DNA of 64,000 nt from Winogradskyella sp. (GTDB lineage Bacteria > Bacteroidota > Bacteroidia > Flavobacteriales > Flavobacteriaceae): positions 372,001 through 436,000 of the forward strand of contig NZ_RHLG01000001.1 in NCBI RefSeq assembly GCF_003712105.1, in the 5' to 3' direction. The notes beneath the pieces are model-generated. The model had not been told where the DNA came from. It searched no databases and was given only the letters and a program-made list of their open reading frames with translations. A program made the translations under genes and the position numbers. How positions within the stretch are numbered: position 1 is the stretch's first letter; each line of letters opens with the position of its first letter. This document shows, piece by piece, positions 22,194 through 53,467 of the stretch.

Positions 22194-23024
22194 TTACCAA
22201 TCTTTTTCAGTTCTTACTTTAGCGCCTTTTTGCTTTTTAGCATTAATTTTTTCTTGAACCTTTTGCTCTTGATTGTTCATGGCTTCAAGAATATTTTTTA
22301 TTTGTTGTGGAGACATTTTTCCAGGTTGTGGTTTTTGCTTTTGCTTCTGCTTGTCTTTTTCACCATTACCTTTATCGTTTTTATCATCTTTAGGCTTACC
22401 GTCTTCATCTTTTTGGTCATCGCCTTTTTTCTTATCCTTGTCGCCTTCTTCGTCTTTTTTATCTTTTTCTTCGTCTCCTTCGTCTTTCTTTTTATCTTTT
22501 TCCTTTTGATCTTCTTTTTTATCGTCTTTCTTTTCATCTTCACCACCGCCATCTTGATCTTGCTGCTCTGCACAATCTTTAGCTAGCGCAAAATTGTAAC
22601 GTGTTTCTTCGTCATTTGGATTGTTTCTTAACGCGTTTTTAAAAGCCTCAACTGCTTCTTTACACTTTTTGTTTTGCATTAAAATATTACCAATATTATG
22701 ATATGCTTTGTGTCTTTCAGTCTTTGTAGTGGCATTTTTTGCAGCTTCTTGACTTCGGAATAATGCCTCATTAAAATTCCCTTTTTTATAGTAAGAATGT
22801 GCAAGATTATAAGTGCCCGCTACACTTTTCTCTTTTTGTGATATGGCTTTACGGTATTCCATTTCGGCAGAAACAAACTCCTCCTTATCAATAAGTTCAT
22901 TTGCTTCGTAAATAAAGTCATTTGCCTTACGCTCTGCTTTTTGTCTTTCCTTTTCAAAATTCTGTGAAAAAGAAGAAGCGCCTACAAATAGACATATCAT
23001 AATTACAATGTAACGTTTCATCAT
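22194..23024 (-). CDS. batC: BatC: TPR protein with highly charged C-terminal half
   Basis: A 276-residue secreted or membrane-facing protein. Signal peptide 1-20 (IVIMICLFVGASSFSQ). TPR repeats cover about 28-145 (AEMEYRKAISQKEKSVAGTYNLAHSYYKKG; HNIGNILMQNKKCKEAVEAFKNAL). Residues 150-230 are almost entirely Lys, Asp, Glu and Gly (KKDDKKEDQKEKDKKKDEGD), a likely disordered segment, then SPQQIKNILEAMNNQEQKVQ. The batB-to-batC gap holds an extra gene at 23032. Two adjacent ATG codons make the start uncertain by one residue. The low-complexity tract produces spurious open frames on all strands. Confidence 0.83.
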   Translation of the reverse strand: MMKRYIVIMICLFVGASSFSQNFEKERQKAERKANDFIYEANELIDKEEFVSAEMEYRKAISQKEKSVAGTYNLAHSYYKKGNFNEALFRSQEAAKNATTKTERHKAYHNIGNILMQNKKCKEAVEAFKNALRNNPNDEETRYNFALAKDCAEQQDQDGGGEDEKKDDKKEDQKEKDKKKDEGDEEKDKKDEEGDKDKKKGDDQKDEDGKPKDDKNDKGNGEKDKQKQKQKPQPGKMSPQQIKNILEAMNNQEQKVQEKINAKKQKGAKVRTEKDW

Positions 23025-38057: not shown

Positions 38058-38193
38058 AAGTCTGTAACAATTTAATATCTTTAAATACAAATAGTTAACC
38101 AACCTCAAGACTACCATCAACTCTATCTGCTTGTTTACACTAACAAGTGACCACGCTTTTTATACCGTTTTATTAATTCTAAATGTTCAGAAT

Positions 38194-39006
38194 ATGAAAT
38201 TCAATATTTTATGTTTAACAGGTTTTTTATGTCTAATGTTATCTTGTGAAAAGCACCAGCATAAAGAAGAACATACAATTACAAAAACTAAAATCATTGA
38301 TTTAAGCCATACCTTTTCTGAAGAAACCGTCTATTGGGTAACTGCAAAAGAATTTAAGCTAGATGTGGTTGCTAAAGGTGATACTGAGAAAGGGTTTTTC
38401 TATGCTGCCAATAATTTTGAAACTGCAGAACATGGCGGTACTCATATTGATGCACCAATTCACTTTTCAAAAGGCAAGCAATCAGTAGAAGAAATCCCAT
38501 TAGAAAAACTTGTAGGTCATGCCATTAAAATAGATGTCAGTGCAAATGCAAAAGGCAACCCAGATTACTTGGTAAGTGTAAATGATTTTATCGATTGGGA
38601 AAACACAAACGGTAACATTCCTGATGGCGCTATTGTGCTTTTAGAAACCGGACATTCTAAACATTATCCTGATAAGCTTAAATATCTTGGCACAGACCAA
38701 CGCGGGCCAGATGCTATTAAGCTCTTACATTTCCCAGGGCTTTCGCCAGAAGCAGCAACTTGGCTAGTAGAGAACAGAAGTATAAATGCTATTGGTATAG
38801 ATACGCCAAGTATTGATTATGGCCAATCAGAGTATTTTAAAAGCCATGTCATTTTACTCTCTGAAAATATACCTGCTTTTGAGAATATCACCAACCTAGA
38901 CCAATTACCTGCCAAAGATTTTGAAGTGATAGCACTACCCATGAAAATTAAAGATGGTAGTGGCGCTCCATTACGAATTATTGCTAAAGTTAAGGATGAG
39001 AGATGA
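38194..39006 (+). CDS. Cyclase family lipoprotein (kynurenine formamidase-like fold)
   Basis: A 270-residue protein of the cyclase/KynB family. The metal-site motif is intact: ETAEHGGTHIDAPIHFSKG (HxGTHxDxPxH). VGHAIKIDVSANAKGNPDY, DGAIVLLETGHSKHY and NAIGIDTPSIDYGQSEYFKSH also match. A lipoprotein signal is present when translation starts at ATG 38194 (KFNILCLTGFLCLMLSC). A TTG-initiated longer frame from 38131 would bury it. Metal-dependent hydrolysis of an amide or lactone is expected; the real substrate is unknown. The stop codon overlaps the first array gene by 4 bases (ATGA), so the array is probably translated from this transcript. Confidence 0.85.
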   Translation: MKFNILCLTGFLCLMLSCEKHQHKEEHTITKTKIIDLSHTFSEETVYWVTAKEFKLDVVAKGDTEKGFFYAANNFETAEHGGTHIDAPIHFSKGKQSVEEIPLEKLVGHAIKIDVSANAKGNPDYLVSVNDFIDWENTNGNIPDGAIVLLETGHSKHYPDKLKYLGTDQRGPDAIKLLHFPGLSPEAATWLVENRSINAIGIDTPSIDYGQSEYFKSHVILLSENIPAFENITNLDQLPAKDFEVIALPMKIKDGSGAPLRIIAKVKDER

Positions 39007-40025
39007 TTAAATTCTTCCGTAAAATACGACAACGCTTATTGTCTGAAAATAAATTCAGTAAATACCTTATTTATGCTTTTGGGGAAATTATTTTAGTAGT
39101 CATTGGTATTCTTCTTGCCTTACAGATTAATAATTGGAACCAAGAACGTACGCAACAAAAAGCAGTTAAAACAGCTTTAGAACAGATTCAAAATGAGCTG
39201 TTGAACGATTTAACCCAAAGCTATAATCTTACCGCTTATCTAGAACGTAAGGACAGTATTATTGAACGCGTGTTAAAAGACGAGGTTACTGAAAACGACT
39301 ATAAAACCTATGGTAATTTACGCTATTTGATAAGAAATACCAGAGTATTCACATTAAACAGAGATGGTTATACAAGTTTAATGAACATCATTGATGAGTC
39401 TAAGTTTAGTAACCCTGAGCTTTTAAGTGCATTAAAAAATCTTTACGTTGACCGTAACAAAAATCATGAGCGCGTTAATGGATGGTTTAGCGATTTCGTA
39501 CATGAATACAATAATGAACTGACTAACAATTATTTATGGCATTCTTCAACCGATGCACTTATTGATAGCCTTACTCAATCTGAAATAGACTATCTACTGT
39601 ATGACCCGTTATATAAAAACAAAGTAGCACGGTATAGAAATTTGGGTATAGGAAATCTTAATAATGATAATTATGGGCTACAAGTAGTAATGGCTCACCT
39701 ATATAATTCTATTTCAGAAGTAACAGAAAAAGGAATTGACAATAACATCATTGCCTCCTATTTTAAAAGTCCTACAGACTCTATTTCTGCTCCATTTTTA
39801 GGAACCTATACTTATGATGGTGATGAGAGTTTCAAGTTATTTCAAGAGCAGGATTCTCTTAAAATACAAATTTTTCCCTCTGACCAAGTTTTTCATTTAG
39901 TGGGTGGCCAACGCAATCGCTTTCAAATTTATAATTCTTCTTTTCAATTTGTGATTGTAAATGATTCTACGCTTCGCGATGTTTCGACGTGGCGCGTAAG
40001 ATATAATAAGGTTAAGGACAATTAA
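39003..40025 (+). CDS. DUF6090 array member 1, with extra C-terminal beta domain
   Basis: 340 residues, the longest member apart from the ankyrin fusion. The N-terminus is the FSKYLIYAFGEI subtype: RKIRQRLLSENKFSKYLIYAFGEI, helix to about 41. The shared motif is degenerate here (SLMNIIDESKFSNPELLSALKNLY, 125-148). Residues 264-337 (FLGTYTYDGDESFKLFQEQ; LKIQIFPSDQVFHLVGGQRN) form an additional beta-rich module, which looks like the lipocalin-like tail of DUF3471-type proteins. Translation is coupled to the cyclase lipoprotein gene (ATGA overlap). Three bases separate its stop from the next copy. Confidence 0.82.
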   Translation: MIKFFRKIRQRLLSENKFSKYLIYAFGEIILVVIGILLALQINNWNQERTQQKAVKTALEQIQNELLNDLTQSYNLTAYLERKDSIIERVLKDEVTENDYKTYGNLRYLIRNTRVFTLNRDGYTSLMNIIDESKFSNPELLSALKNLYVDRNKNHERVNGWFSDFVHEYNNELTNNYLWHSSTDALIDSLTQSEIDYLLYDPLYKNKVARYRNLGIGNLNNDNYGLQVVMAHLYNSISEVTEKGIDNNIIASYFKSPTDSISAPFLGTYTYDGDESFKLFQEQDSLKIQIFPSDQVFHLVGGQRNRFQIYNSSFQFVIVNDSTLRDVSTWRVRYNKVKDN

Positions 40026-40028
40026 ATT

Positions 40029-40832
40029 ATGATTAAATTCTTTAGACATATCCGCAAATCACTTTTAGAACAAAACAAAATGGGTAACTACTTTAAATAC
40101 GCCATTGGAGAAATACTACTTGTCGTAATTGGAATCCTCATTGCTTTACAGATAAATAATTGGAACGAGAATAGAAAGAAAATAGATCAAGGACAAGTCT
40201 TAATGCAAGAACTCATAGAAGAGTTTAAACTTCATATAGATGCATTTGACTATGGTTTAGAAAATCAGATTGAAAGTTTCGAAAGACAACGGGCAATCTT
40301 TGAAATTAAAGATTTAGAAAAGGTTAGAGTTGATAGCTTAGCATACATTGTTGGTGTTGCGAATATCGATATAAATATTTCATCCAACACTTATGAAAAA
40401 ATCAAAAATCAAGGCATTGGAAAACTAACTGATAATGACTCTTTGAACAAAGCTATTAATTACCACTTAATGGAAAGAATAGGATTATATAACAGACGTA
40501 TTGACTATTATTTAGAACGCAATAAAGCAAGAATTGACTACATCAATGAATCAAATATCCTGTATCGGAATAATTTAATCAAAGGATTACCAAAGGTAAA
40601 TGATGAGGATATTAAAAAAAGTGTTTTGAATTTTCTTAACGAGAAACGGACTAAAGGTATGATAGTAACTTCCTACTATGACAAAATCAGTGCTATTAAT
40701 TACCTCATAGAAAAGAAGAAAGCTTGGATAGAGCTCATGCAAGCTATACACAAGGAGTTGTCCTTATCAAAGCCATATATAGAGCCATTACCAATTTTCG
40801 ATAACTATTTAGACTATAAAATAGAGCAATGA
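40029..40832 (+). CDS. DUF6090 array member 2
   Basis: 267 residues, MGNYFKYA subtype. After the membrane helix (24-42) comes a long helical stretch LMQELIEEFKLHIDAFDYGLENQIESFERQRAIFE, then the shared motif as TYEKIKNQGIGKLTDNDSLNKAINYH (121-146). The tail is very basic and helical (RRIDYYLERNKARIDYINE) and ends with KPYIEPLPIFDNYLDYKIEQ. The stop TGA lies inside the ATGA that starts member 3. Confidence 0.83.
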   Translation: MIKFFRHIRKSLLEQNKMGNYFKYAIGEILLVVIGILIALQINNWNENRKKIDQGQVLMQELIEEFKLHIDAFDYGLENQIESFERQRAIFEIKDLEKVRVDSLAYIVGVANIDINISSNTYEKIKNQGIGKLTDNDSLNKAINYHLMERIGLYNRRIDYYLERNKARIDYINESNILYRNNLIKGLPKVNDEDIKKSVLNFLNEKRTKGMIVTSYYDKISAINYLIEKKKAWIELMQAIHKELSLSKPYIEPLPIFDNYLDYKIEQ

Positions 40833-41590
40833 TTAAATTCTTTAGACATATTCGTAAAAGACTGCTATCCGAAAACCGATTTAGCAAATACCTTATTTAT
40901 GCTATTGGTGAGATTATATTGGTAGTCATTGGTATTGTAATAGCCTTACAGCTTAATATCTCTTACACCAATAAGCAATCTCAAAATACTATCCGTAAGT
41001 ATCTGAGTGAACTTAAAAAGGAAATCGGTCAGAATGGAGGTATTGTTAATGGTTGGATTGGTGAATTGAATAGAAATATTGAAGTATCCAACAGATACCT
41101 AAAAATCATAAATACCCAAACACCGAATACTGTACAGGATTCCACACTGATAAATATGATTGGTGAACTTGGGCCGACAAATTTGTATCCATTAGCCAAT
41201 TCAGTGTTCGATGATTTCAATTCTTCAGGATTAATCAATTCAATAAAAAACGACTCTTTAAAGCGTGCTGTTATTCTTATTGAAACACGTATTAATTCAT
41301 ACAACTTTGCAAAAGAGGAACTGGTAGAATCTTGGAACAAACAACTTCTACCGTATTATACAAAATACGCCAATTTAATGCAGGTTTTTGACTCTATTCA
41401 GTCAGAGAAAATTCCTCCAAGTTATATCAAGTTAGACCGAGTTGACTTTATAAATAATAAAGAGTTCAATAATGTAATTATGAGCCGTATGATTACTTCA
41501 TCCAATTCTTTGTATCGCTTAGAAAGAATCAAAACACGTTTCGAAGCGTTGCAAAACGATATCGATAAATACTTAGAGACCAATGATTAA
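40829..41590 (+). CDS. DUF6090 array member 3
   Basis: 253 residues, FSKYLIYA subtype. It is the only copy lacking the INNWNE signature after the helix; instead it reads ALQLNISYTNKQSQ. The shared motif is clear: VFDDFNSSGLINSIKNDSLKRAVILIE (127-153). The extracytoplasmic part is otherwise unlike its neighbours, with NGWIGELNRNIEVSNRYLKII. It ends LETND, the final Asn-Asp-stop being read from the start sequence of member 4 (8-base overlap). Confidence 0.83.
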   Translation: MIKFFRHIRKRLLSENRFSKYLIYAIGEIILVVIGIVIALQLNISYTNKQSQNTIRKYLSELKKEIGQNGGIVNGWIGELNRNIEVSNRYLKIINTQTPNTVQDSTLINMIGELGPTNLYPLANSVFDDFNSSGLINSIKNDSLKRAVILIETRINSYNFAKEELVESWNKQLLPYYTKYANLMQVFDSIQSEKIPPSYIKLDRVDFINNKEFNNVIMSRMITSSNSLYRLERIKTRFEALQNDIDKYLETND

Positions 41591-42293
41591 ATTTTTCCGT
41601 CGCATACGCCAAAAATTAGTGGTTGAAAACCGCTTTAGCAAATACCTCATCTATGCTCTTGGTGAGATTGTACTTGTTGTCATTGGAATTTTAATTGCCC
41701 TTCAGATTAATAACTGGAATGAAAACAATAAAATAGAAAAGGATATTAATGGTTCTTTACGCGCCATGATAGATGAGCTCAACGAAAATGAGACGTATTT
41801 CAAGTATGCCAGTAATCATGCTCAAACCCGAAAAGATGGTATTCAAAAGATTCTCGACGGGAAGGCGTCAAATGATGACAAAAGGTTAATCTTAAACAAA
41901 TTTGGTCAAAGTGTTAATTCAAAACCATTCAACAAAATATTCGAATTGTTGAAGGATGAGAAAAAACTACAGTTAATAAAAGACAAAGCGCTAATTAAAA
42001 ACATTAATAAATTTTATGAGTATAATTTACTTGGTTTAGATGATTTGGCAGATTGGCATAAGGGTTTTGTAGGCGACAATATAGATCCTTTCATCATCGA
42101 AAACATACCATCAAATGACTTTTTGGTAGAACCAGAAATTGTGGATGACTTATTACAAAAAGTAAAGTTTAGAAATATTCTGTCCTATCAAGAAGTAATG
42201 TATGAAGCTTATTTACAAGAAGCATCATATGCGCTGGAGAATGCGCAAAGTCTCAGAACTGATATTGAAAAGTACTTAGAAGTTAATGATTAA
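41583..42293 (+). CDS. DUF6090 array member 4
   Basis: 236 residues, FSKYLIYA subtype (KLVVENRFSKYLIYALGEI). The shared motif is weak: FELLKDEKKLQLIKDKALIKNINKFYEYN (120-148) keeps the spacing and the KALIK helix but lost the SG pair. The tail contains DLADWHKGFVGDNIDPFIIENIPSNDF. It is short compared with other members. It ends LEVND through the 8-base overlap with member 5. Confidence 0.82.
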   Translation: MIKFFRRIRQKLVVENRFSKYLIYALGEIVLVVIGILIALQINNWNENNKIEKDINGSLRAMIDELNENETYFKYASNHAQTRKDGIQKILDGKASNDDKRLILNKFGQSVNSKPFNKIFELLKDEKKLQLIKDKALIKNINKFYEYNLLGLDDLADWHKGFVGDNIDPFIIENIPSNDFLVEPEIVDDLLQKVKFRNILSYQEVMYEAYLQEASYALENAQSLRTDIEKYLEVND

Positions 42294-43470
42294 GTTTTTC
42301 AGACATATTCGTAAATCCTTATTAGAAAAAAATCAAATGGGAAAATACTTTAAATACGCTATTGGAGAAATACTACTTGTAGTTATTGGAATTTTGATTG
42401 CTTTACAGATTAATAATTGGAAAGACGCTAAAGAGAATAAAAAAATCGAATTTAATTATTTAAAAGGCATCGTTTCTAACCTCAATGATGATATTGATGA
42501 GCTAGAAGAATTACTAGCTAATGACTCACTCACCATCAACGCCTATACACATATCCTGAGGCCTTTTCAAGGTAATGAGATCAATCTATATAGCAGGGCT
42601 TTTCTAACAAGTTTAGGATATGTACAATTAACCCCTAAATTTGATGGTAACAGTATCGTTTTTGAAGACATGAAATCTTCAGGAAAAATTAACTTTATCC
42701 AATCTGATGCACTTCGTTTTGCTTTGTTTGAATACTACAACTTGAGTCAAAAAAATAATGAGGTTCACAAAAAGAATAATGTTCTTATCAATAATCTAAT
42801 TGCAAAAGCTTTTACTAACAACTTGGATATAAATTCTTTAGTTGAAGGGTTTTTGTTTCGCGATAATTGGAGTGCACAATTAGACCCGCTAGACTTATCA
42901 TTCTTTCTAAAAGACAAACAGAATGTCGAAGTAAAAGCCTTTGCTAATAGAGTCTCTACAATGAAAGGGTTAAGAAAAATGAATCACAATTCTAGTTTTA
43001 ATACCAACCAAAGAGCTAGAAAATTAAAGGCGCTTATTGAAAATTATTTAGATGGAAAAGAAATTGACTTTACAACAAAAGTCTCACCCAAAATCTTACT
43101 AGCAATACAAAATGACGATGCAGAAAAGCTCACTAAGCTTATCTCTAAAGAAGACCTCCATACATGTTTTGAAATTCAGGCAAATTACCCCATTAATTTA
43201 CTAGCATTAAGTATTGAATCTAACGCTTTGCAATGTGCAAAATTGTTAATTGACAAGGACACCGATTTAGAACAAGCATGCTATGATAAGACTGCTCTTA
43301 TGTATGCCGTTAAATATGGACACTTGGATTTGGTAAAATATCTATTAAAAAAAGGAGCTGACATTAATAAAATTTCAGTTGAAGGTAATACAGCTATGTA
43401 TTATGCCAAACGATACGATCATCCCGAAATTGAGCAATTTTTGATTAATTACAAAACAGCAAATGATTAA
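42286..43470 (+). CDS. DUF6090 array member 5 fused to ankyrin repeats
   Basis: 394 residues. Residues 1-260 are a normal member (helix 24-42; motif VFEDMKSSGKINFIQSDALRFALFEYY, 125-151). Residues 269-394 add ankyrin repeats: KILLAIQNDDAEKLTKLIS, NLLALSIESNALQCAKLLIDKD, TALMYAVKYGHLDLVKYLLKKGADIN and NTAMYYAKRYDHPEIEQFLINY. The ankyrin part lies on the extracytoplasmic side by prediction, a less common place for it. The stop is inside an ATGATTAAATT (43463) that is not followed by an array gene. Confidence 0.85.
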   Translation: MIKFFRHIRKSLLEKNQMGKYFKYAIGEILLVVIGILIALQINNWKDAKENKKIEFNYLKGIVSNLNDDIDELEELLANDSLTINAYTHILRPFQGNEINLYSRAFLTSLGYVQLTPKFDGNSIVFEDMKSSGKINFIQSDALRFALFEYYNLSQKNNEVHKKNNVLINNLIAKAFTNNLDINSLVEGFLFRDNWSAQLDPLDLSFFLKDKQNVEVKAFANRVSTMKGLRKMNHNSSFNTNQRARKLKALIENYLDGKEIDFTTKVSPKILLAIQNDDAEKLTKLISKEDLHTCFEIQANYPINLLALSIESNALQCAKLLIDKDTDLEQACYDKTALMYAVKYGHLDLVKYLLKKGADINKISVEGNTAMYYAKRYDHPEIEQFLINYKTAND

Positions 43471-43473
43471 ATT
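43463..43473 (+). other. Vestigial cassette start at the junction before the BNR gene
   Basis: ATGATTAAATT, identical to the first 11 bases of the array genes, overlaps the end of member 5 by the usual 8 bases. The next bases (AACAGAACC) are unrelated to the family and the frame stops after ten codons. It marks where an array gene start once lay. Confidence 0.55.
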
Positions 43474-43508
43474 AACAGAACCTAAATACTATTAATAACC
43501 CTGAAATA

Positions 43509-46500
43509 ATGAAAGCATTAAAACTTTTGACAATCTGCTTGCTATTTATAGCAGTAGATGGCTACGCACAAAAACGAAAGAAAAAAACAACTACGCCAGC
43601 TATTAAACTAGCAGACTCTATGTTTCATGGCCTCAAATGGCGTAACATTGGTCCTTTTCGTGGTGGACGTAGTGTTGCCTCTACTGGCGTTATTGGGCAA
43701 CCGCAAACCTATTATATGGGTTCTACAGGTGGTGGTGTTTATAAAACTACAGATGCAGGTATTACATGGAAAAATATTTCGGATGGACAGTTCAAAACAG
43801 GCTCTGTTGGTGCCATTGCAGTCTCAGAAAGTGACACAAACATCGTAGTGGTTGGTATGGGCGAACATGCTGCTCGTGGTGTCATGACCTCTATGGGAGA
43901 TGGCGTTTACAAATCCATGGACGCAGGAAAAACATGGGTGCATATAGGTTTAGAAAATACGCGTCATATTTCGGATGTGATTATTCATCCTACAAATCCA
44001 GATATTATTTATATCAGTGCTCAAGGGGCACAATATGCTCCAACCAAAGAACGCGGTATTTACAAAACAATCGATGGCGGAAAAACTTGGGAACAAATAC
44101 TGTTTGTAAACACAACCACAGGGGCATCATCAGTATCAATGGATATGACTAATCCACGAATTCTTTACGCATCCATGTGGCAACACCGTCGCTATCCGTG
44201 GTTAATAGAATCTGGTGGAGAAGATTCAGGTTTATACAAATCTATTGATGCGGGAAACACTTGGGAAAAATTAGAAAAAGGCTTACCAAAAGAATTCGGG
44301 AAGTCTGGTATTTCGGTATCTAGAGCAAATCCAGAACGTGTATTTGCAGTTATTGAAGCAGAAGGTAAAAAAGGTGGTGTGTATCGTTCTGACAATGCCG
44401 GAAAAACATGGAAACAGGTTAATGGCAATCGTGTAAATATTGCACGCTCTTGGTATTACATGGAAATATTTGCTGATCCTCAAAACGAAAATGTGGTTTA
44501 TGTTTTAAATGCGCCAGTAATGAAATCAATTGATGGCGGAAAAAGCTTTGCTAATATTCCTGTGCCACATGGAGATAATCACCATTTATGGATTAATCCT
44601 TACGACAATACAAACCTCATTAACTCTAATGATGGTGGTGCTAATATTTCGTTTAATAGCGGAAAAAGTTGGAGCACGCAACAAAATCAACCTACATCGC
44701 AATTCTATCGTGTTATTACGGATAATTTAGTGCCTTACAATGTGTACGGTGGCCAACAAGACAATTCGGCCATTGCCATTGCCAGTCGCACAAATGATGC
44801 TGGTATCGACTGGAAAGATTGGTACTCAGTTGCTGGTGGCGAAAGTGCATTTATTGCTTTTGACCCTGATAATCCAGAAACGGTATATGGCGGAACATAC
44901 CAAGGTAATATTAGCAAATGGACAAAATCGTCTCGAGAGCAAAAGTCTATTAAAGAATACCCAGAACTTGGGCTCAGTATTGCCCCTAAAGATTCAAAAT
45001 ACCGCTATAATTGGAATGCACCAATTATTACTTCACCACATAATAGATCAACCATTTATCATGCAGGGAATGTGGTGTTTAAAACCACAGATGGTGGTAC
45101 AAACTGGACAACTGTTAGCCCTGATTTAACCAAAAACGAAAAAGACAAACACGGACCTGGTGGAGCGCCTTTTACTAATGAAGCTGCTGGCGGCGAAAAT
45201 TATAATACCATCACAGTATTAGTAGAATCACAGCATGAAGAAGGAGTGCTCTATGCTGGTACAGATGATGGCTTATTACATGTTACCAAAAATGGCGGTA
45301 CGGATTGGGAAAATATTACACCAAAAGGTATCGAGGATGGCATCATAAATAGTATAGATGTATCTGAGCATGATGCTAGTACAGCTTATGTGGTAATTAT
45401 GCGCTATAAATCTCAAGACCTTAAATCTTACATTTTTAAAACTACAGACTATGGTCAAACTTGGACTAAAATTGTAAACGGCTTAGATGACCCTAATGGC
45501 TTTGCAAGGGTTGTTAGAGCCGATAAAAAACAAAAAGGATTATTGTACGCAGGTACCGAAACAGGATTATATATCTCTAACGATGACGGTGCACATTGGC
45601 AACGTCTCAACTTAGGATTACCAGTGGTTGCTATTAATGATTTAACCATACAAGATAATGACTTAGTTGCGGCAACTTCTGGTCGTGGCTTCTGGATTTT
45701 AGACGACTTAGGCGCATTACAACAAATGGGAACTTCGCAAAAATCCGTTGAAATATTTAAGCCTAAACCTAGCTATCGCATTTTTGGTGGTGTGTCTAAA
45801 GCTACAGGTCAAGGTCAAAACCCAAAATCTGGTGTTACTTTCGATTATTACTTAGATAAGGATGCAGATACGTTAGACCTTAAGCTCGAAATCTTACAAG
45901 GTTCAAAAGTGATTAGAGCCTACACAAACAAAACCCCAAAAGGTTTTAAATCTTGGCCTGGTGGACCAAGCAAACCACAAATATTACCAGCAAAAAAAGG
46001 GTATAACCGATTTACTTGGGACTTTAATAGAGACGCATTACCATCTATAAATAAAGTTTTTGTGTTTGGCGGACATGGAGGCTCTAGTGTAGCTCCTGGA
46101 GATTATAAATTAAGATTGACTTTAGATGGTGAAGCTGTGGAAACCATGGCTGCTATTCTTCCAAATCCAGCAATTAATTCAACTTCTAGTGATTTTGCTG
46201 AACAACAAGATATACTAGTAGCTATTGAAAATACGGTGAGAGATATGCACCAATCTGTAAACCAGATGCGCTCTGCAAAAGCTCAGCTTAATAGCTACGC
46301 CAAACTTTTAAAAGGTAATGACAATGCCAAAGCCTTGATTGAAAAAGGTAAAGCCTTAACAAAGCGCATTAATAGTTGGGAAGAAAATCTTATTCAAGCT
46401 AAGCAAAAAACCTTTCAGGATGTGATTAATTTTAATAACAAACTCAATGCACAACTCATTAATTTAAAAGGCTATATAGACCAAGCAAACCCTAAAGTTA

Positions 46501-46655
46501 CAAGTGGCGCTAAAGAACGTTTTAAGGACTTAATGCAAGATTGGAACGTTTATAAAAACGAACGTGATGCTATTATAAATACAGAGATGAGCGCTTATAA
46601 CGACTTGTATAAATCTCTCAATTTACCAGCACTTATTCTTAAAAAGAATGACTAA
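43509..46655 (+). CDS. Secreted BNR/VPS10 (sortilin-like) beta-propeller protein
   Basis: 1048 residues. Signal peptide 1-21 ([16 protein letters not shown]). At least ten Asp-box/BNR units follow: [56 protein letters not shown] and others between residues 60 and 720. This fits a ten-bladed or double propeller as in VPS10/sortilin and xyloglucanase relatives; it is often named glycosyl hydrolase, but no catalytic residues can be assigned. Residues 750-880 are beta-rich and 890-1040 helical. No T9SS C-terminal sorting domain is visible. It sits between array members 5 and 6, its stop sharing one base with the next start (TAATG). Confidence 0.85.
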
Positions 46656-47413
46656 TGATTAAATTCTTTAGACATATTCGCCGTTCACTAATCCAAGAAA
46701 ATAAAATGGGAAAATACTTTAAATACGCTATTGGTGAGATTGTACTTGTGGTTATTGGAATCCTCATTGCTTTACAGATTAATAATTGGAATGAGAACCG
46801 AAAAGACAGAGCTGAAGAACTCAAAATACTAAAGAGTCTACATAAAGAAGTTAAATCTAATATTGCAGCTTTTGATTTCGACTACACAATTCAGCAGAGA
46901 AATATGAAGGCGATTCAAAATGTAGTCATATTAAGACCATCATTATATACTCTGGGGCAATTAGATTCCATATTTTCATCTACAAGACCACATAGTTATA
47001 ACGCCTCTTTTGGCATCTTAAATAGTATTGTTAGCACAGGAAAAATAGAATTAATTACTAATGACTCTCTAAAAGAAAGTATCTCTGAGCTTAAGGACTA
47101 TATTATAGATTATAGAGAAGATGAAGACAAAACTCTAGACATGGGCACTTACATCACCAAACTCTGGGTAGAAGACGAGTTTTATATAGATAATGAGATA
47201 TTAATGGGTGTAAGACCAAGAACAGCATTAGAAGAGCAACAAGACAAACAAAAGTATATTGCACTTTATAATTCACCTAAAATTAAAAAAGCCTTTTTAT
47301 CAATGCTTACTCTTAATGCTGGTGTTATAGAAGAAGGTGGACGATTAAAGCACCGCTTTACGAGATTATTAGAAACTATCGAGAGTGAAATTCAACGATT
47401 AGGTAATGATTAA
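46655..47413 (+). CDS. DUF6090 array member 6
   Basis: 252 residues, first copy after the BNR gene, MGKYFKYA subtype. The shared motif is close to consensus: GILNSIVSTGKIELITNDSLKESISEL (120-146). The preceding part has DFDYTIQQRNMKAIQNVVILRPSLYTLGQLDSIF. The tail includes YITKLWVEDEFYIDNEILMG and a basic RLKHRFTRLLETIESEI. It starts on the last base of the BNR stop codon and ends GND through an 8-base overlap. Confidence 0.83.
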   Translation: MIKFFRHIRRSLIQENKMGKYFKYAIGEIVLVVIGILIALQINNWNENRKDRAEELKILKSLHKEVKSNIAAFDFDYTIQQRNMKAIQNVVILRPSLYTLGQLDSIFSSTRPHSYNASFGILNSIVSTGKIELITNDSLKESISELKDYIIDYREDEDKTLDMGTYITKLWVEDEFYIDNEILMGVRPRTALEEQQDKQKYIALYNSPKIKKAFLSMLTLNAGVIEEGGRLKHRFTRLLETIESEIQRLGND

Positions 47414-48137
47414 ATTCTTTAGACATATAAGGAAATCATTGTTAGAACAAAGCAAAATGGGAAAATACTTTAAATATGCTATTGGCGAAATTATTTTGGT
47501 AGTCATTGGAATTTTGATTGCGCTTCAAGTAAATAATTGGAATGAAAATAGAAAGTTGATAAAACAACAGAAAGGATTAACGGCATCAATTAAGAAAGAC
47601 TTAAAAGCAGATATTACCTATTTGAATGAATACATAGAGAAGCTCCGAAGAGACTATGAAATTCTACAAGACCAATCAATAAAAGTTAACCGCATATCCT
47701 ACAGTAAAGATTCTCTCATACATTTTTTAAAAAAAGAAATCTATATTTTTTCGGTAACCTTTGAAGGATTTAATAACAACTCTTATGAATCTATAAAAAC
47801 ATCCGGTAAACTGGACATTTTAGATGAAGCACTAAAACAGCCCTTATATGAGCTTTCTATTTTACAGAGCGTCAACTATGATAAAAATCAAGGCTTGGCA
47901 AATGATTATTATGATGAAATAGAAAATCTTGTTAGGTATTATCCAATACAAGTGCCTTTTGCCTTTATCAAAGATACTTCTCAAAATGATTTTGTTTGGA
48001 AGAATATGAATAAGAAAGACATGATACTAAACCTTAATTCTTGGGGAACCGTGAAAGCAAACTATTTAAGAGTTACTCTTGGAGATTTTATTAAGATTTT
48101 AGAAAAAACAAAGGTTGTTTTAAAACTATTAGAATAA
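47406..48137 (+). CDS. DUF6090 array member 7
   Basis: 243 residues, MGKYFKYA subtype with QVNNWNENRK. Lysine-rich after the helix (LIKQQKGLTASIKKDLKADI). The shared motif is SYESIKTSGKLDILDEALKQPLYELS (126-151). The C-terminal tail ends TKVVLKLLE, unlike the ND-type ends of its neighbours, because this junction is a 4-base gap: TAA, TGAT, then the next ATG. The gap duplicates ATGAT, as if the start sequence was partly copied. Confidence 0.83.
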   Translation: MIKFFRHIRKSLLEQSKMGKYFKYAIGEIILVVIGILIALQVNNWNENRKLIKQQKGLTASIKKDLKADITYLNEYIEKLRRDYEILQDQSIKVNRISYSKDSLIHFLKKEIYIFSVTFEGFNNNSYESIKTSGKLDILDEALKQPLYELSILQSVNYDKNQGLANDYYDEIENLVRYYPIQVPFAFIKDTSQNDFVWKNMNKKDMILNLNSWGTVKANYLRVTLGDFIKILEKTKVVLKLLE

Positions 48138-48141
48138 TGAT

Positions 48142-48849
48142 ATGATTAAATTCTTTAGACATATTCGTAAATCCTTAATTGAAGACAACAAAATGGGAAA
48201 ATATTTTAAGTATGCTATTGGTGAAATATTACTCGTAGTTATCGGCATTCTATTAGCGCTACAAATAAATACATGGAAAGAGTCAAGAGCCAATCGTCAG
48301 TTAGAGATACGCTATTTAACCAATATGCTAGGAGAATTAAGAACCGACTCTGTTGGTATTAATAACAAGCTTAACCAAGTTATGAGACAAGCCCAGACTA
48401 AAAATCAATTTTTAGATATGGTCAAAGGCAAAACAGAGGTAGATTCGTTATTTGAATACTTTAAGATTCAATGGGCACCTATTTTTCCTTATAAAACTTT
48501 AAATGCCACATATAGTGAAATGACCAGTAGCGGACATCTCGCTATCATTAGAAATGACCCTTTACGAGAGCAGATAATAAAAACGTATAATCAGTTTGAT
48601 GATTTAAAAGAAAATGAGGCATTTTTTATAGATTTTTATTCTGAGCAAATAACTACTATGAGCGCTTATTTTCGTGATATGTACAACCCAACTTATGATG
48701 AGATAATAAATATTGGCCAACATGGAGAATTAACTAATAGCATTAGACTTAATGGTGCCAACTCGCGAGCAGAATTTTATAAAAAAGCAATGTTAGGCTG
48801 TGAAGAATTAATAAAAAGTATCAACGATTATAAACAAAACATTGAATGA
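48142..48849 (+). CDS. DUF6090 array member 8
   Basis: 235 residues, the shortest intact copy. The conserved post-helix segment is altered to QINTWKESRA. The shared motif reads TYSEMTSSGHLAIIRNDPLREQIIKTYN (123-150). Distinct features are methionine-rich stretches (NMLGELRTDS; NQVMRQAQTKNQFLDMV) and a tail with one cysteine (KKAMLGCEELIKSIND). It overlaps the next copy by 4 bases. Confidence 0.83.
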   Translation: MIKFFRHIRKSLIEDNKMGKYFKYAIGEILLVVIGILLALQINTWKESRANRQLEIRYLTNMLGELRTDSVGINNKLNQVMRQAQTKNQFLDMVKGKTEVDSLFEYFKIQWAPIFPYKTLNATYSEMTSSGHLAIIRNDPLREQIIKTYNQFDDLKENEAFFIDFYSEQITTMSAYFRDMYNPTYDEIINIGQHGELTNSIRLNGANSRAEFYKKAMLGCEELIKSINDYKQNIE

Positions 48850-49589
48850 TTAAATTCTTTAGACATATTAGAAAATCATTGTTAGAAAAAAATCAAATGG
48901 GAAAGTACTTTAAATATGCTATTGGTGAGATACTACTTGTAGTTATCGGGATTTTAATTGCATTACAAATTAATAATTGGAATGAAAATAGAAAAGAAAG
49001 AATCTATGAAACTAAAATTTTATCTGAAATCAGAAAGGACCTCTTGTTAGACTCCATATACTTTAATGCTTTAAAAAGTAGAGCCAAAATTACACTACGT
49101 GGTGTAAATGAATTGAGAGCAATAAATACAAGTGGGGATTTTATTTCTGACTCAATATGTAGTTCATACTCAAGGCTAGGAATTGGTGTTAATTATAGCT
49201 ACCGCAACGGATCTTATGAATCTCTAAAATCTGTTGGATTAGATAGAATATCAAATGATTCTTTACGAAATCAAATTTCTAAAATTTATGACTTTACTTT
49301 TCCAAGGAATAAAGAACTAGTTTACAATATTCAAAACAGTAGAGATGATAAATACTTGAAAACTTTTGAGGAATTCTTTTATTATGATATTAACACCAAA
49401 GGTAATGTTATAACTAAACCTAAATTAAAAATATCTGGAGAAGATATTTATAGAAGTTTAAGCTTTACCACTACGATAGTATTTACAGAATCTTATGCAG
49501 AAGAACTTTTAATACGCTTAAATATAGTTCTAGGTCATATTAGTGATTTACTCTTAAATCTAGATAAAGAATTAAATAGTAATGATTAA
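48846..49589 (+). CDS. DUF6090 array member 9
   Basis: 247 residues. The N-terminus is identical to member 5 over about the first 45 residues. The shared motif is SYESLKSVGLDRISNDSLRNQISKIYDF (123-150). It is preceded by a Ser/Tyr-rich section SDSICSSYSRLGIGVNYSYRNG. The tail has FEEFFYYDINTKGNVITKPK and a hydrophobic end HISDLLLNLDKELNSND. It joins member 10 by an 8-base overlap. Confidence 0.83.
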   Translation: MIKFFRHIRKSLLEKNQMGKYFKYAIGEILLVVIGILIALQINNWNENRKERIYETKILSEIRKDLLLDSIYFNALKSRAKITLRGVNELRAINTSGDFISDSICSSYSRLGIGVNYSYRNGSYESLKSVGLDRISNDSLRNQISKIYDFTFPRNKELVYNIQNSRDDKYLKTFEEFFYYDINTKGNVITKPKLKISGEDIYRSLSFTTTIVFTESYAEELLIRLNIVLGHISDLLLNLDKELNSND

Positions 49590-50307
49590 ATTCTTCAGAC
49601 ATATTCGCCGCTCACTTTTAAATGAAAATCGTATGGGAAAATACTTTAAATATGCCTTTGGTGAAATATTGCTTGTAGTAATCGGAATCCTTATTGCATT
49701 GCAGATTAATAATTGGAATGAATCTAACAAAGCCAAAAAAACAGAAGTTTATGTGTTAACCGAAATCCTAAATAACCTTGAAGAAGATAGTGATATACTT
49801 AAACATATGATACAAAAAAGAGAGAAGGCAAAAACTTCTGTATCGAAAATGATATCTTATTTAGAAGAATCGAGTATTTCGCAGGATACCTTAGAGGCCG
49901 ATTTACTAAATATGCTAACTTTTGAACGTTATTTCCCAATAAACAATGGTTATGAAATATGTAAATCAAAAGGATTAGAGCTTTCAAACAACTTACTAAT
50001 TTCAAAAATATCACGCTACTACAATTATGAGCAACCCAAGGCAAACAAAAGCATTATCGATGTGGAAAATGCTATTTTGGAAATCCTTGAAGACACAAAA
50101 AGTATAAGTCGGTTTATTGAAGTATTAACGCTTAACGAAGAAATAAAACTCACAAATTACCAAGACGAGCAGTTCTTGGCGGAACTTAAAACAGAAACTG
50201 TAGCCTTTAAAAACAATAACGTAGGAACATTGTCTGTCATAAAAGATTTATATGACATTAATAAATCATTGAGAAATGAAATTAGAGATGAAATAGGGCA
50301 TGATTAA
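49582..50307 (+). CDS. DUF6090 array member 10
   Basis: 241 residues. The N-terminal linker is NENRMGKYFKYAFGEI. The shared motif is rearranged: GYEICKSKGLELSNNLLISKISRYYNYE (123-150) keeps position, the SKG core and the helix but loses NDSL. The region before it is rich in Ser/Thr and Glu (LEESSISQDTLEADLLNM). It ends IGHD by 8-base overlap. Confidence 0.82.
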   Translation: MIKFFRHIRRSLLNENRMGKYFKYAFGEILLVVIGILIALQINNWNESNKAKKTEVYVLTEILNNLEEDSDILKHMIQKREKAKTSVSKMISYLEESSISQDTLEADLLNMLTFERYFPINNGYEICKSKGLELSNNLLISKISRYYNYEQPKANKSIIDVENAILEILEDTKSISRFIEVLTLNEEIKLTNYQDEQFLAELKTETVAFKNNNVGTLSVIKDLYDINKSLRNEIRDEIGHD

Positions 50308-51112
50308 ATTCTTTCGCCACATACGTCGTTCACTAATTAACCAAAATCAAATGGGAAAATATTTTAAATACGCTATTGGTGAAATACTGCTTGTAGTAAT
50401 CGGAATCCTAATAGCATTGCAGATTAATAATTGGAATGAGAATCGAAAAAACAGGGCTCAGGAGCAAGAAATCTTAACTCAATTATTTTCAGAGTACGGT
50501 AGTAATTTAGAACAAATTGAAAGTAAAATAAGTTTAAGGGACGATGTAATAAAATCATGCATAAAACTGCTAAGCTATACTCAAAACCCTCCTGAGAATC
50601 TTTCTCCTGATAGTATAGATTATCATTTATCACGCGTTGTTCTCAGACCAACTTTCGATCCGCAATTGGGTGTAAGTAATGAACTCATTAACTCTGGAAA
50701 GCTTTATCTATTGAGTAATCCTCAGTTGCGAAATAGCATTTCGTCATATCCAAGTTTTTTAAAAGAACTAAATGAAGAAGAAATGAATATTTTTAGGATT
50801 ACGGAAGAACAATTATTTCCATTTCTTGTAGCTAACTATCAAATTGGTGGTTTGAGCACGCAATTTTTATTTGATGAAGAGCTTAGATTACGCTTTACAA
50901 TAGGAAAAGAACTAAGCGATTTCTCAGATTTAGAAGACCTTATTCCTAAAGCCGATTTCACCAATCTGCTCAGCCATCCAGACTTCGAAGACCATATTGC
51001 CCGGATTCTTGGTATGACGCCATACACTAATGAACAGTCTATTGGTGTTAGAACCAAAACACAAGAGATTTTAGAATTGATAACTTCTTCTCAAAAGCAA
51101 AGAGATGATTAA
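50300..51112 (+). CDS. DUF6090 array member 11
   Basis: 270 residues. The shared motif is very clear: SNELINSGKLYLLSNPQLRNSISSYPSF (126-153). The extracytoplasmic part contains YGSNLEQIESKISLRDDVIKSCIKLL before the motif and a long acidic tail (FSDLEDLIPKADFTNLLSHPDFEDHI) after it. It ends QRDD by 8-base overlap with member 12. Confidence 0.83.
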   Translation: MIKFFRHIRRSLINQNQMGKYFKYAIGEILLVVIGILIALQINNWNENRKNRAQEQEILTQLFSEYGSNLEQIESKISLRDDVIKSCIKLLSYTQNPPENLSPDSIDYHLSRVVLRPTFDPQLGVSNELINSGKLYLLSNPQLRNSISSYPSFLKELNEEEMNIFRITEEQLFPFLVANYQIGGLSTQFLFDEELRLRFTIGKELSDFSDLEDLIPKADFTNLLSHPDFEDHIARILGMTPYTNEQSIGVRTKTQEILELITSSQKQRDD

Positions 51113-51839
51113 ATTCTTTAGACATATTCGTCATTCACTAATCCAGAAAAATCAAATGGGAAAATATTTTAAATACGCTATTGGTGAAATTCTGCTTGTA
51201 GTAATCGGAATCCTAATAGCATTGCAGATTAATAATTGGAGTGATAAATCGAAGCTCATGGAGCAAGAAAAAGTATACTTAAAACAGTTACTCCATGATT
51301 TCATGGCTAATAAAGAAGGAATAAGTTATTTTAAAAAAGCCTATGAGGGAGAACTAAAACATCTAGACGTGATACTTAGGCACACTGGGCCAAATGTTGA
51401 AATACCTTCTGATAAAATTTTTGATTCTATTCAAAATTTAAACACGCCAAATGTTGAATTATTATATGCTACGACTGAAACTCAGACCGATTTAAATTTA
51501 GATTTAATATCAAATAACAATTTAAAACAAACAATTAAACGGTTTCCTATAACCTATAAATTCTACGACGGTAATGAAAGAGGTTTGGATGAATTGGTGA
51601 TAGAACAAAGAAAAATTCACCAACAGTATATACCTCTAATAATAAATGAAAATAAAAACTATGGTCAGGAATTCCATCCTATCGATACTGTTGGATTTTT
51701 AAGAAATAAAGAATTCCAAAATATAACTGTAGACCGTTTATGGGTGACCCGGACGGCTATAAATAGATTAAAAAGTGTAGAACAACATAATGACTCTATA
51801 GTAAAACTTATAGAAATAGAATTGAGCAAGCATGATTAA
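51105..51839 (+). CDS. DUF6090 array member 12
   Basis: 244 residues. The post-helix segment is QINNWSDKSK. The shared motif is TTETQTDLNLDLISNNNLKQTIKRFPITYKF (123-153), with ISNNNLK in place of the NDSLK core and no SG pair. Other parts: LLHDFMANKEGISYFKKAYEGELKHLDVI and a polar tail FLRNKEFQNITVDRLW, similar in pattern to the NKEFNNVIMSRM tail of member 3. It ends SKHD by 8-base overlap. Confidence 0.83.
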   Translation: MIKFFRHIRHSLIQKNQMGKYFKYAIGEILLVVIGILIALQINNWSDKSKLMEQEKVYLKQLLHDFMANKEGISYFKKAYEGELKHLDVILRHTGPNVEIPSDKIFDSIQNLNTPNVELLYATTETQTDLNLDLISNNNLKQTIKRFPITYKFYDGNERGLDELVIEQRKIHQQYIPLIINENKNYGQEFHPIDTVGFLRNKEFQNITVDRLWVTRTAINRLKSVEQHNDSIVKLIEIELSKHD

Positions 51840-52641
51840 ATTCTTCCGTCATATACGTCGCTCACTAATCCAAGAAAACAAAATGGGAAAATACTTTAAA
51901 TACGCTATTGGTGAAATTGTTCTTGTAATGATCGGAATTTTATTGGCATTACAGATTAACAACTGGAATCAGAATCGTCTTAATACAGACTTAGAATCTT
52001 TATACTATAAACGACTTTTAGATGATGTAAGAGAAGAAGAACAAATTCTTGAGGCTATTATTAATTATTCTAATCAAGTTACTTTTCATGCAAAAAGGGC
52101 AATAGCAGTTTTCGAAAATTCTTCAAAGGCTGCCGATAATCCTGTTGAAAATATAATAGATATGTATCAGGCAAGTCAATTTACAGATTCATATTCAGCA
52201 GAATCAACTTTTAAAGAATTAATTGCTTCTGGTCAAATAAATCTCCTACAAAATGACAGTATAAAAACTGCATTAATTAGATATTATGATGCTGAATGGG
52301 CTGAATCTGGAACCTTTACATTTAAAAATAAGTATAGAGAGAATCTAAGAGGAAAAATGCCAGATGATATTCAAACACAGATTCGAATGAATTGTGGCGA
52401 TATATATCTAAAAAAAGGAAACAGTTATCTCATAAGCTTACCTGACAAATGCAATATTGATCTGGATATTAATATTGCAAAATCTGTAATAGATGAGTTA
52501 CGCACGGACGAGAGTTTAAAAAAAGATTTAAGGTATCTAATCGGTAATGAGGAAGGAAAAATGAATGATTTAAAACCAATAAAGAAGCAACTGAATAACC
52601 TTATTTCACTTTTAGAAGAAATTAATAATGAAAATCAATGA
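51832..52641 (+). CDS. DUF6090 array member 13
   Basis: 269 residues. The helix reads IVLVMIGILLAL, a valine-to-methionine change shared only with member 14, suggesting a recent duplication of the module between them. The shared motif is TFKELIASGQINLLQNDSIKTALIRYYDAEW (126-156). The tail has two cysteines (RMNCGDIYLKKGNSYLISLPDKC), which could form a disulphide if exported. It overlaps member 14 by 4 bases. Confidence 0.83.
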   Translation: MIKFFRHIRRSLIQENKMGKYFKYAIGEIVLVMIGILLALQINNWNQNRLNTDLESLYYKRLLDDVREEEQILEAIINYSNQVTFHAKRAIAVFENSSKAADNPVENIIDMYQASQFTDSYSAESTFKELIASGQINLLQNDSIKTALIRYYDAEWAESGTFTFKNKYRENLRGKMPDDIQTQIRMNCGDIYLKKGNSYLISLPDKCNIDLDINIAKSVIDELRTDESLKKDLRYLIGNEEGKMNDLKPIKKQLNNLISLLEEINNENQ

Positions 52642-53420
52642 TTAAATTCTTCCGTCATATCCGTCGCACACTAATCCAAGAAAACAAAATGGGAAAATAC
52701 TTTAAATATGCTATTGGCGAGATTATTCTTGTAATGATTGGTATTCTATTAGCACTCCAAATTAATAATTGGAATGATCATAGAAAATCAGTATCCGACT
52801 CCAAAATACTCATCAACGAAATGATTAATGATTTGGCTTCAGACACACTCTATTTAGAAAATGCTGAAACCAAATTAAAACGAAGATTAAAACTTGAAGA
52901 ATGGATATTATTCAAAACCTCTTACACGCTTAAAGACATGGATTCTATTAAGATGGCTATAGATGGTGGTTATTTCGATTTCTATATCAATGACCGTACG
53001 TTTCAAAAAATTCAAAATTCGGCACAATCAAAATTAATTGGGTTTGATAATCTTTATAAAGCAATTGCCGATTATTATACCATTACCAAAAAACGTATCG
53101 AAAAAAATACCGAATACGAAATTCGAGAAACTACCAGAAAGGACATCGGTATCTGGGACAAGTTTGCAAAAGAGATTGAAATAGATGCGGTTTTTAATAC
53201 CGATTATACGGGTCGTGCATTAGATGTCACTTTCCCTAAAATTAAATCTACGGATGAGCAAAACCAGAAGATTATTGACCTCATCTCTACAATTGAAGCT
53301 CGTAATTACCTTAAACAAAACTATGGGCGTCATCTATTTCTGTTTGTCTATTTTAGAGATACTAATAAAAAGGCTAAAGCTCTAATTTCCGATATACAAA
53401 AGGCTTTAGAAGACGATTAA
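52638..53420 (+). CDS. DUF6090 array member 14
   Basis: 260 residues, last intact copy. The helix is IILVMIGILLAL. The motif is diverged: TFQKIQNSAQSKLIGFDNLYKAIADYYTIT (121-150), keeping spacing and the AIADYY helix. The tail is lysine-rich (YFRDTNKKAKALISDIQKALEDD). The final Asp-stop comes from ACGATTAA, the mutated start of the decayed next copy, the same 8-base geometry as the live junctions. Confidence 0.82.
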   Translation: MIKFFRHIRRTLIQENKMGKYFKYAIGEIILVMIGILLALQINNWNDHRKSVSDSKILINEMINDLASDTLYLENAETKLKRRLKLEEWILFKTSYTLKDMDSIKMAIDGGYFDFYINDRTFQKIQNSAQSKLIGFDNLYKAIADYYTITKKRIEKNTEYEIRETTRKDIGIWDKFAKEIEIDAVFNTDYTGRALDVTFPKIKSTDEQNQKIIDLISTIEARNYLKQNYGRHLFLFVYFRDTNKKAKALISDIQKALEDD

Positions 53421-53467
53421 ATTCTTCAGAAATAGTCACTGTTAATTAATACAAAAAAATAAAACTG
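53413..53467 (+). pseudogene. Decayed 5' end of a fifteenth DUF6090 copy
   Basis: Aligned without gaps to the gene starting at 46655, 43 of 55 bases match by my count. The start codon is ACG instead of ATG, and codon 11 is a stop. Similarity ends where a palindromic dispersed repeat begins (53471), so the rest of the copy has been lost or replaced. Confidence 0.65.

Follow-up and report, generated by a model that had tools for sequence, protein, structure and literature searches.

A DUF6090 gene array in Winogradskyella as a candidate repertoire of exchanged anchor-exterior cassettes

Integron gene cassettes are exchangeable units that lie in one orientation, and within the phylum Bacteroidota the rAID arrays are, to our knowledge, the system nearest to the one described here. 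The latter occur in Bacteroidales, are defined by a tyrosine recombinase together with conserved intergenic motifs, and counter the type VI secretion system (T6SS) (PMC12247911). Homogeneous polyimmunity loci are usually single per organism, have a recombinase such as XerC/D next to them in several cases, and encode immunity proteins of which all but a few have been described as cytoplasmic (Zhang et al. 2012, PMC3482391). For esaG and tipC, the toxin-linked immunity arrays of the type VII secretion system in Staphylococcus and Streptococcus, recombination between paralogues has been inferred, homologous recombination via conserved blocks alters the copy number, and TipC is membrane-bound and faces outward (PMC9484751). 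In this study we describe an array of 14 genes of the family DUF6090 in a 64,000-nt stretch of DNA (the window; positions 372,001 to 436,000 of contig NZ_RHLG01000001.1, assembly GCF_003712105.1) from the 3.1-Mb genome of Winogradskyella sp. Each gene would be a cassette that joins a fixed part of 46-48 residues, made up of a basic stub and one membrane helix (the anchor), to one exterior of about 200 residues, and sequence comparisons make an exchange of exteriors as cassettes very probable.

The array shares with integron cassettes the single orientation and the exchangeability of its units, but its repeat is coding, and no integrase match was found on the contig (C6), with five such matches elsewhere in the genome (no search for attC was made). 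Since the edges of the DNA shared between genomes are spread along the repeat, homologous rather than site-specific recombination fits. Like the orphan-immunity arrays of the rAID type, the array consists of co-oriented and rapidly evolving genes of about 100-300 codons in a member of the Bacteroidota; unlike them, it has no tyrosine recombinase on the contig, no T6SS marker was detected in the genus genomes, a result silent on attackers, and the window shows no conserved intergenic motifs, the family genes joining by overlaps of 8 or 4 nt or by gaps of 3-4 nt (PMC12247911). With esaG and tipC it has in common the strings of paralogues and recombination through conserved blocks, a likeness of mechanism, but here there is a single 5′ anchor block, exchange would reach across species, genera and a class, and no toxin was found (PMC9484751). 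In form the array resembles a homogeneous polyimmunity locus (PMC3482391), with paralogues of one family that follow each other closely on the same strand and are not separated by toxin genes, ankyrin repeats among the members, and a number and type of genes that differ between relatives, here at the species level. It differs from such loci in its membrane anchor and exterior domain, in the lack of a recombinase on the contig, in the occurrence of several loci per genome, and in that no toxin link was seen among the families listed for neighbouring genes. The array would act like an immunity repertoire, and we do not file it as a locus of that type.

Evidence for exchange comes from genes of different genomes whose exteriors are closely similar. 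The starting set held 116 between-genome pairs with exteriors at least 80% identical, and the test set 38 independent pairs (exterior DNA identity of at least 0.88, each gene used once, different genomes). Three pairs were dropped for an unusual protein start, two retained pairs with odd starts were re-aligned, and after codon alignment all 38 pairs have at least 40 aligned anchor codons. In these two counts, as in those of shared blocks and of the -7 motif below, loci of one organism under different L numbers are treated as different genomes; genomes present twice in the data were recognised by long identical stretches. Identity at third codon positions was 0.69 in the anchor and 0.90 in the exterior, and the anchor was the lower of the two in 33 of the 38 pairs (Wilcoxon p 1.8e-9). 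Where the upstream DNA was unrelated (31 pairs), the anchor was lower in 30 (0.64 vs 0.89), and among the seven pairs with syntenic upstream DNA three showed the drop and four did not, the latter being what vertical or whole-block descent would give. The DNA on both sides of the gene was unrelated in 24 of the 38 pairs. An exterior that moved onto another anchor, or an anchor that was replaced, would explain this pattern, and we read it as exchange because near-identical exteriors carry less-alike anchors, the opposite of long-term conservation. Compared with the aldehyde-dehydrogenase gene at the flank, exteriors were also more alike at third positions in 31 of 32 pairs (not independent of each other), with means of 0.85 for the exterior, 0.70 for the anchor and 0.70 for the flank.

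The extent of the shared DNA corresponds to about one gene: blocks measured 600-900 nt in 107 of 160 cases (each pair counted in both directions), their 5′ edges lay at -20 to +72 of the ATG in 119, and their 3′ edges no more than 100 nt past the stop in 105. On its 5′ side the shared DNA evidently stops for the most part within the gene's own anchor, and on its 3′ side where the following unit starts or slightly beyond that point. At base level this can be followed in a pair from Winogradskyella (G005) and Arcticiflavibacter luteus (L051), in which the upstream DNA is unrelated, the first 45 nt or so of the anchor differ, and near-identity then runs from about nt 45 to the stop and takes in the opening bases of the following anchor before the two sequences diverge. 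One cassette is common, at 90-92% DNA identity, to Winogradskyella (G049), Maribacter aquimaris and Portibacter lacus, the last of which belongs to another class, Saprospiria; mislabelling of the Portibacter contig is made less likely by the non-family genes of that stretch, whose best relatives in the data set are distant (28-39% identity). Near-identical exteriors evidently occur across species, genera and, once, classes, as single genes or short runs. As a mechanism, the anchor repeats that flank the exteriors would act as a handle for ordinary homologous recombination with incoming DNA, arriving for example by natural transformation, and an exterior could be inserted, lost or replaced while the reading frame, the membrane targeting and the gene overlap are kept. 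DNA uptake and recombination are possible, since genes for the competence proteins ComEC and DprA are present in the genome, as they are in 10 and 11 of 14 control genomes, respectively.

The family was found in 48 of 60 genomes of the genus (the host genome included), well in excess of chance, with 0-45 matches per genome and several family regions per genome (e.g. G053 and G059), and all 360 adjacent family pairs lie on the same strand. The host genome (G000) carries two more members, of 329 and 333 aa, on contig C9 (L185, L186). DUF6090 reaches 45 matches in a single genome, and no paper naming it or the anchor motif INNWNE was found in the open-access literature searched, most subscription papers lying outside that search. 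With the VPS10 gene as a syntenic marker, the array site could be located in relatives, where the order is aldehyde dehydrogenase, asparaginase, array, VPS10, array, alpha-2-macroglobulin. Five relatives carry only one to four family genes at this site, and most of the proteins around it have 73-96% identity to their window counterparts, one flanking SH3 protein being near 30%. The exteriors at these five sites have no match among those of the window or one below 30% identity, the exception being a relative of gene 12 with 57% identity. Arrays recur at the aldehyde-dehydrogenase site throughout the genus, with content that differs and is partly collinear. The repertoire evidently turns over while the flanking genes stay put; a static set of the same 14 genes at uniform divergence, the outcome that the preliminary description of the window had set against its own proposal, is not what the five syntenic relatives hold at the species level. 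A conserved 111-aa protein is encoded beside or inside arrays of several Winogradskyella genomes (L168, L157, L172, L170, L035, L142, L155, L184 and others), in some of them at the aldehyde-dehydrogenase site.

Redundancy was assessed by permuting genome labels over 343 genes from the fetched loci of 34 Winogradskyella genomes (G genomes only), a set that covers these loci and not every family gene of each genome. Within-genome pairs of exteriors at least 70% identical numbered zero against 6.8 expected (P=0.0012), and those at least 60% identical three against 9.4 (P = 0.014). Identical copies within one genome were absent, all 42 identical groups being genomes present twice; collapse of short-read assemblies could mask the newest duplicates, but not those at 70-95%. 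The sets seem to grow by acquisition, with redundancy avoided or lost, because duplication would leave the closest relatives side by side and none of at least 70% identity was found within a genome. The pooled ratio of nonsynonymous to synonymous substitution rates (dN/dS) over the 38 pairs was 0.19 for exteriors and 0.11 for anchors, and the median for neighbouring genes 0.05-0.08, at much higher dS. By this measure exteriors stand above anchors and flanking genes, in support of the preliminary description, yet they remain under purifying selection; they are functional and moderately free, not decaying. Broken copies are few: among 631, excluding copies cut by the ends of a stretch, 13 lack an anchor start and 15 are shorter than 190 aa.

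Residues 1-48 of the 14 proteins have a mean column identity of 86% with 24 invariant positions, and the first 150 nt of the genes are 62-88% identical at the DNA level. Because identities at codon positions one, two and three of the first 48 codons are 0.776, 0.93 and 0.549, the likeness of the anchors is maintained by selection at the protein level and not by very recent copying. The exception is a tract of 97 nt shared by genes 11 and 12, which diverge after codon 46; it is a trace of anchor exchange within the window. The anchor block was detected in 47 of 395 genomes sampled across the phylum. By the positive-inside rule the N-terminus is predicted to lie inside, and the anchor appears to have some sequence-specific role.

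The exteriors are far more variable, with a mean entropy per column of 2.83 bits vs 0.79 for the anchor in a 111-row alignment around gene 6. Conserved spots lie near residues 55-73 and 125-146 of this alignment, the second agreeing with a motif noticed earlier near residues 127-150, and helical content is hinted at by periodicity. Profile-profile comparison of the 14 exteriors gave probabilities of 86-100% in 177 of 182 directed pairs, mostly over 165-200 columns, the profiles being built from one data set so that rows can be common to several of them. The five weaker directed pairs were gene 1 with genes 11 and 12 in both directions, and gene 11 against gene 2. An iterated profile from gene 6 reaches 471 of the 569 exteriors in the data set. 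On this basis the exteriors are one homologous, hugely diverged domain family of about 200 residues. The preliminary description was right in seeing a constant membrane anchor with a diverse set of exteriors, as alignment and entropy confirm, and wrong in taking these for different domains. Length varies within narrow limits, 565 of 618 anchor-complete proteins having 225-274 aa, and a minority carry extra C-terminal modules, namely ankyrin repeats in gene 5 (Pfam) and others judged by eye only. Compared with solved structures, the exterior profile gave a best E-value no better than 0.2. One open reading frame (ORF) of 592 aa elsewhere in the data set (L079:3819-5597) combines a DUF6090-type anchor with what appears by eye to be a sulfatase C-terminus, either a fusion or an assembly error.

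In the window the array comprises 14 co-oriented genes on the plus strand between 39003 and 53420 (ORF listing; Table 1), and the near-constant start and divergent remainder first noted for them are borne out by ORFs and alignment. The array ends with its last gene, short of the 53467 given in the preliminary description, and the tandem arrangement proposed there holds as a same-strand run but not as an uninterrupted one, because one unrelated Sortilin/VPS10-BNR gene divides it into 5 + 9. Assignment to DUF6090 (PF19578) stands for 13 of the 14 genes, which score above the curated Pfam cut-off; gene 3 falls below it, despite which its anchor is present and its exterior homologous by profile comparison. 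Upstream, the same-strand series opens at 36957 with a gene for asparaginase-2, followed at 38131 by one for a putative cyclase, which the start of gene 1 overlaps by 4 nt. Among the 12 direct family junctions, seven are overlaps of 8 nt, three are overlaps of 4 nt and two are gaps of 3-4 nt; the 8-nt overlap reads ATGATTAA and places the stop of the upstream gene within the start of the next. The gene overlaps of 4-8 nt, and the lack of a terminator-like site in any gap between family genes, are consistent with the array being read as one transcript. The Bacteroidota -7 motif was not enriched before arrays (0.07 vs 0.06 in shuffled sequence), and sigma-70-like sites numbered 66, fewer than the 83 in shuffles.

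Table 1. Positions of the array genes, of their anchor tracts and of related features (window coordinates unless a locus is named).
Feature	Position	Strand	Description
gene 1	39003..40025	+	340 aa; anchor, exterior and C-terminal tail of ~90 residues; DUF6090 32.3 bits
gene 2	40029..40832	+	267 aa; DUF6090
gene 3	40829..41590	+	253 aa; anchor 95.9 bits; below Pfam DUF6090 detection
gene 4	41583..42293	+	236 aa; DUF6090
gene 5	42286..43470	+	394 aa; C-terminal ankyrin repeats (Ank_2 E 1.9e-17)
interposed Sortilin/VPS10-BNR gene	43509..46655	+	1048 aa; not a family member; between genes 5 and 6; syntenic marker in relatives
gene 6	46655..47413	+	252 aa; start overlaps stop of VPS10 gene by 1 nt
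gene 7	47406..48137	+	243 aa; DUF6090
gene 8	48142..48849	+	235 aa; DUF6090
gene 9	48846..49589	+	247 aa; DUF6090
gene 10	49582..50307	+	241 aa; DUF6090
gene 11	50300..51112	+	270 aa; exterior 73% identical to one in another Winogradskyella genome (G039)
gene 12	51105..51839	+	244 aa; exterior 57% identical to ones in G049 and G067 (W. tangerina)
gene 13	51832..52641	+	269 aa; exterior 70-71% identical in two other Winogradskyella genomes, 67% in Maribacter flavus
gene 14	52638..53420	+	260 aa; DUF6090; last of the array
constant 144-nt anchor, example from gene 6	46655..46798	+	basic stub and hydrophobic helix; starts all 14 genes
shared anchor tract, gene 11	50343..50439	+	97 nt, at most 2 mismatches vs gene 12; stops at codon 46
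shared anchor tract, gene 12	51148..51244	+	counterpart of gene 11 tract
hairpin element copies (examples)	L168:2248-2350, L168:7766-7868, L107:12048-12150, L044:9883-9985, L106:13068-13170, others		outside the window

Among the neighbours of arrays, 37 proteins were scanned (36 interposed and one flanking); the 25 of 37 families listed for them include no toxin family, apart from a GIY-YIG domain of unclear role in one interposed gene. In the window the VPS10/BNR gene is the sole interposed gene, and Pfam revealed no toxin gene between family members. Five PHROGs families were each matched by one member of the DUF6090 family. With gene 6 as sole query, no relative was found in plasmid records.

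We regard the array as probably a recognition repertoire against variable biotic partners. The ligands of the exteriors may be variable foreign proteins active in the envelope, and the array may be a stock of immunity proteins against rival bacteria. That exchanged anchor-exterior cassettes form an immunity-type stock is the explanation we favour as a whole, and we hold it tentatively, with slightly less than half our confidence; immunity to antibacterial proteins specifically is possible and somewhat doubtful. It is a more speculative proposal that periplasmic defence domains form a pool common to marine Bacteroidota of different classes and are stored in integron-like arrays without integrase, with the anchor as both tether (probably docking on a common partner) and recombination handle, and with selection for a non-redundant set. 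The role in recognition, immunity or signalling put forward in the preliminary description is not established, no toxin, T6SS or clear defence family being present among the matches listed. Several observations weigh against the favoured explanation as a whole. The 38 pairs were picked for high exterior identity and prove the occurrence of exchange, not its frequency, and 35 of the 160 shared blocks extend more than 20 nt upstream while 7 end inside the gene. The dN/dS of 0.19 in recent pairs comes without a gene-wide sign of positive selection, and the anchor is stricter than a plain tether requires, which suggests a further partner. No toxin or secretion gene occurs among the families listed for neighbours (37, 42 and 75 proteins; best 25 of 37, of 66 and of 65 families). 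VipB had no match in 68 genomes, E. coli alone being positive among 14 controls; TssC (PF17541) had none in the 68 genomes either, a weak negative since no control matched. PADLOC gave two families with one member each, PDC-M72A (E-value 2e-11), presumably the ankyrin gene, and Cas7c (E-value 0.008). Moreover, the anchors of array mates are barely closer to each other than to those of other genomes (third positions 0.526 for adjacent anchors vs 0.455 between genomes). That small excess is what plain tandem duplication with fast divergence of paralogues, without any exchange, has in its favour, but such an origin is contradicted by near-identical exteriors on other anchors in other species and finds no recent within-genome duplicates in the loci examined, so that we consider it very unlikely.

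A further point against immunity, which does not predict it, is that sampled genes directly upstream of arrays lean to peptide and amino-acid breakdown: among 75 sampled of 172, asparaginase-2 occurs in five, RidA in four, and asparagine synthase, amino-acid permease, M20 peptidase and cyclase in two each, families that are absent among those with at least two matches in 75 sampled of 459 distant genes. Because of this leaning, a receptor or binding repertoire for scavenging peptides and amino acids, in which the exteriors bind different extracellular peptides and work with neighbouring hydrolases, has to be weighed, and interposed genes of the M28, M20, M19, M24, S9, S41 and GGT families (among the matches listed) would suit it. 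Yet no signalling domain was seen, several neighbours derive from one ancestral locus, which makes the counts non-independent, and a pairing of an exterior with a particular neighbouring enzyme was rejected, the VPS10 gene having unrelated DUF6090 neighbours in each of five relatives; a scavenging function seems improbable to us. The outward anchored domain, the diversity, the horizontal spread and the non-redundancy would fit equally well an anti-phage repertoire, in which inner-membrane proteins would use their periplasmic domains to keep particular phages from injecting DNA, much as superinfection-exclusion proteins act. This we think unlikely to a similar degree, given that no relative was found in phage records with gene 6 as sole query or in IMG/VR with anchor patterns as query, that PADLOC gave no clear family, and that no defence family is among those listed for neighbours. 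Cassettes could also be mere passengers that readily enter any anchor by recombination and are carried along by the gene upstream, without gain to the cell, as overlapping genes at varied sites and the 34 of 172 same-strand upstream neighbours ending no more than 10 nt from the first family gene would allow; however, 126 of the 172 lie more than 60 nt away, and the exterior dN/dS, the scarcity of broken copies and the avoidance of redundancy also speak against this account, which has a slim chance. If the immunity-type stock of exchanged cassettes is real, one coding block of 144 bases would both tether a protein in the membrane and allow different species to trade the part of it that senses or confers immunity. 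Species could in this simple way come to share a defence repertoire, and marine communities would be expected to harbour many antagonists not yet seen. Under this explanation, crossovers should fall in the anchor, a genome should hold no duplicates, and all anchors should have one partner in common.

In relatives, an element of about 100 nt that bears hairpins lies directly before many DUF6090 genes (Table 1); it was not found in the window or elsewhere in the host genome, and its copies at four loci had no match in Rfam. When 68 genomes were searched with a covariance model under strict filters, there were 49 matches in 18 genomes. All 16 matches outside the fetched stretches precede a same-strand anchor start. 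The nearest anchor is no more than 16 nt away in 14 of them, and the other two have it at distances of 38 and 179 nt; this anchor is weak or short in three of the 16, one of which has its next full anchor 151 nt away. The element often begins like an anchor, is often a short ORF and can end in the ATGATTAA overlap, in the manner of a mini-cassette. Of 43 copies, 16 have a family gene no more than 400 nt before them, and most of the remainder stand first in a run. Paired changes in the second stem, G-C to U-A in 11 of 25 and U-A to C-G in 10 of 25, co-occur as two main variants and may stem from few events. An explanation of the element solely as a conserved peptide was rejected, since the first hairpin is read in two frames, 9 of the 43 copies have no open frame from an ATG, and the second stem has paired changes. 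The element may be a leader, a regulator or a scar.

Apart from the array, the window contains seven copies of an 84-bp tandem repeat (88% matches) at 61079-61665, within a minus-strand ORF of 603 aa (60419-62230), and overlapping short tandem repeats with units of 21-33 nt at 22423-22541, within the minus-strand ORF 22194-23024.

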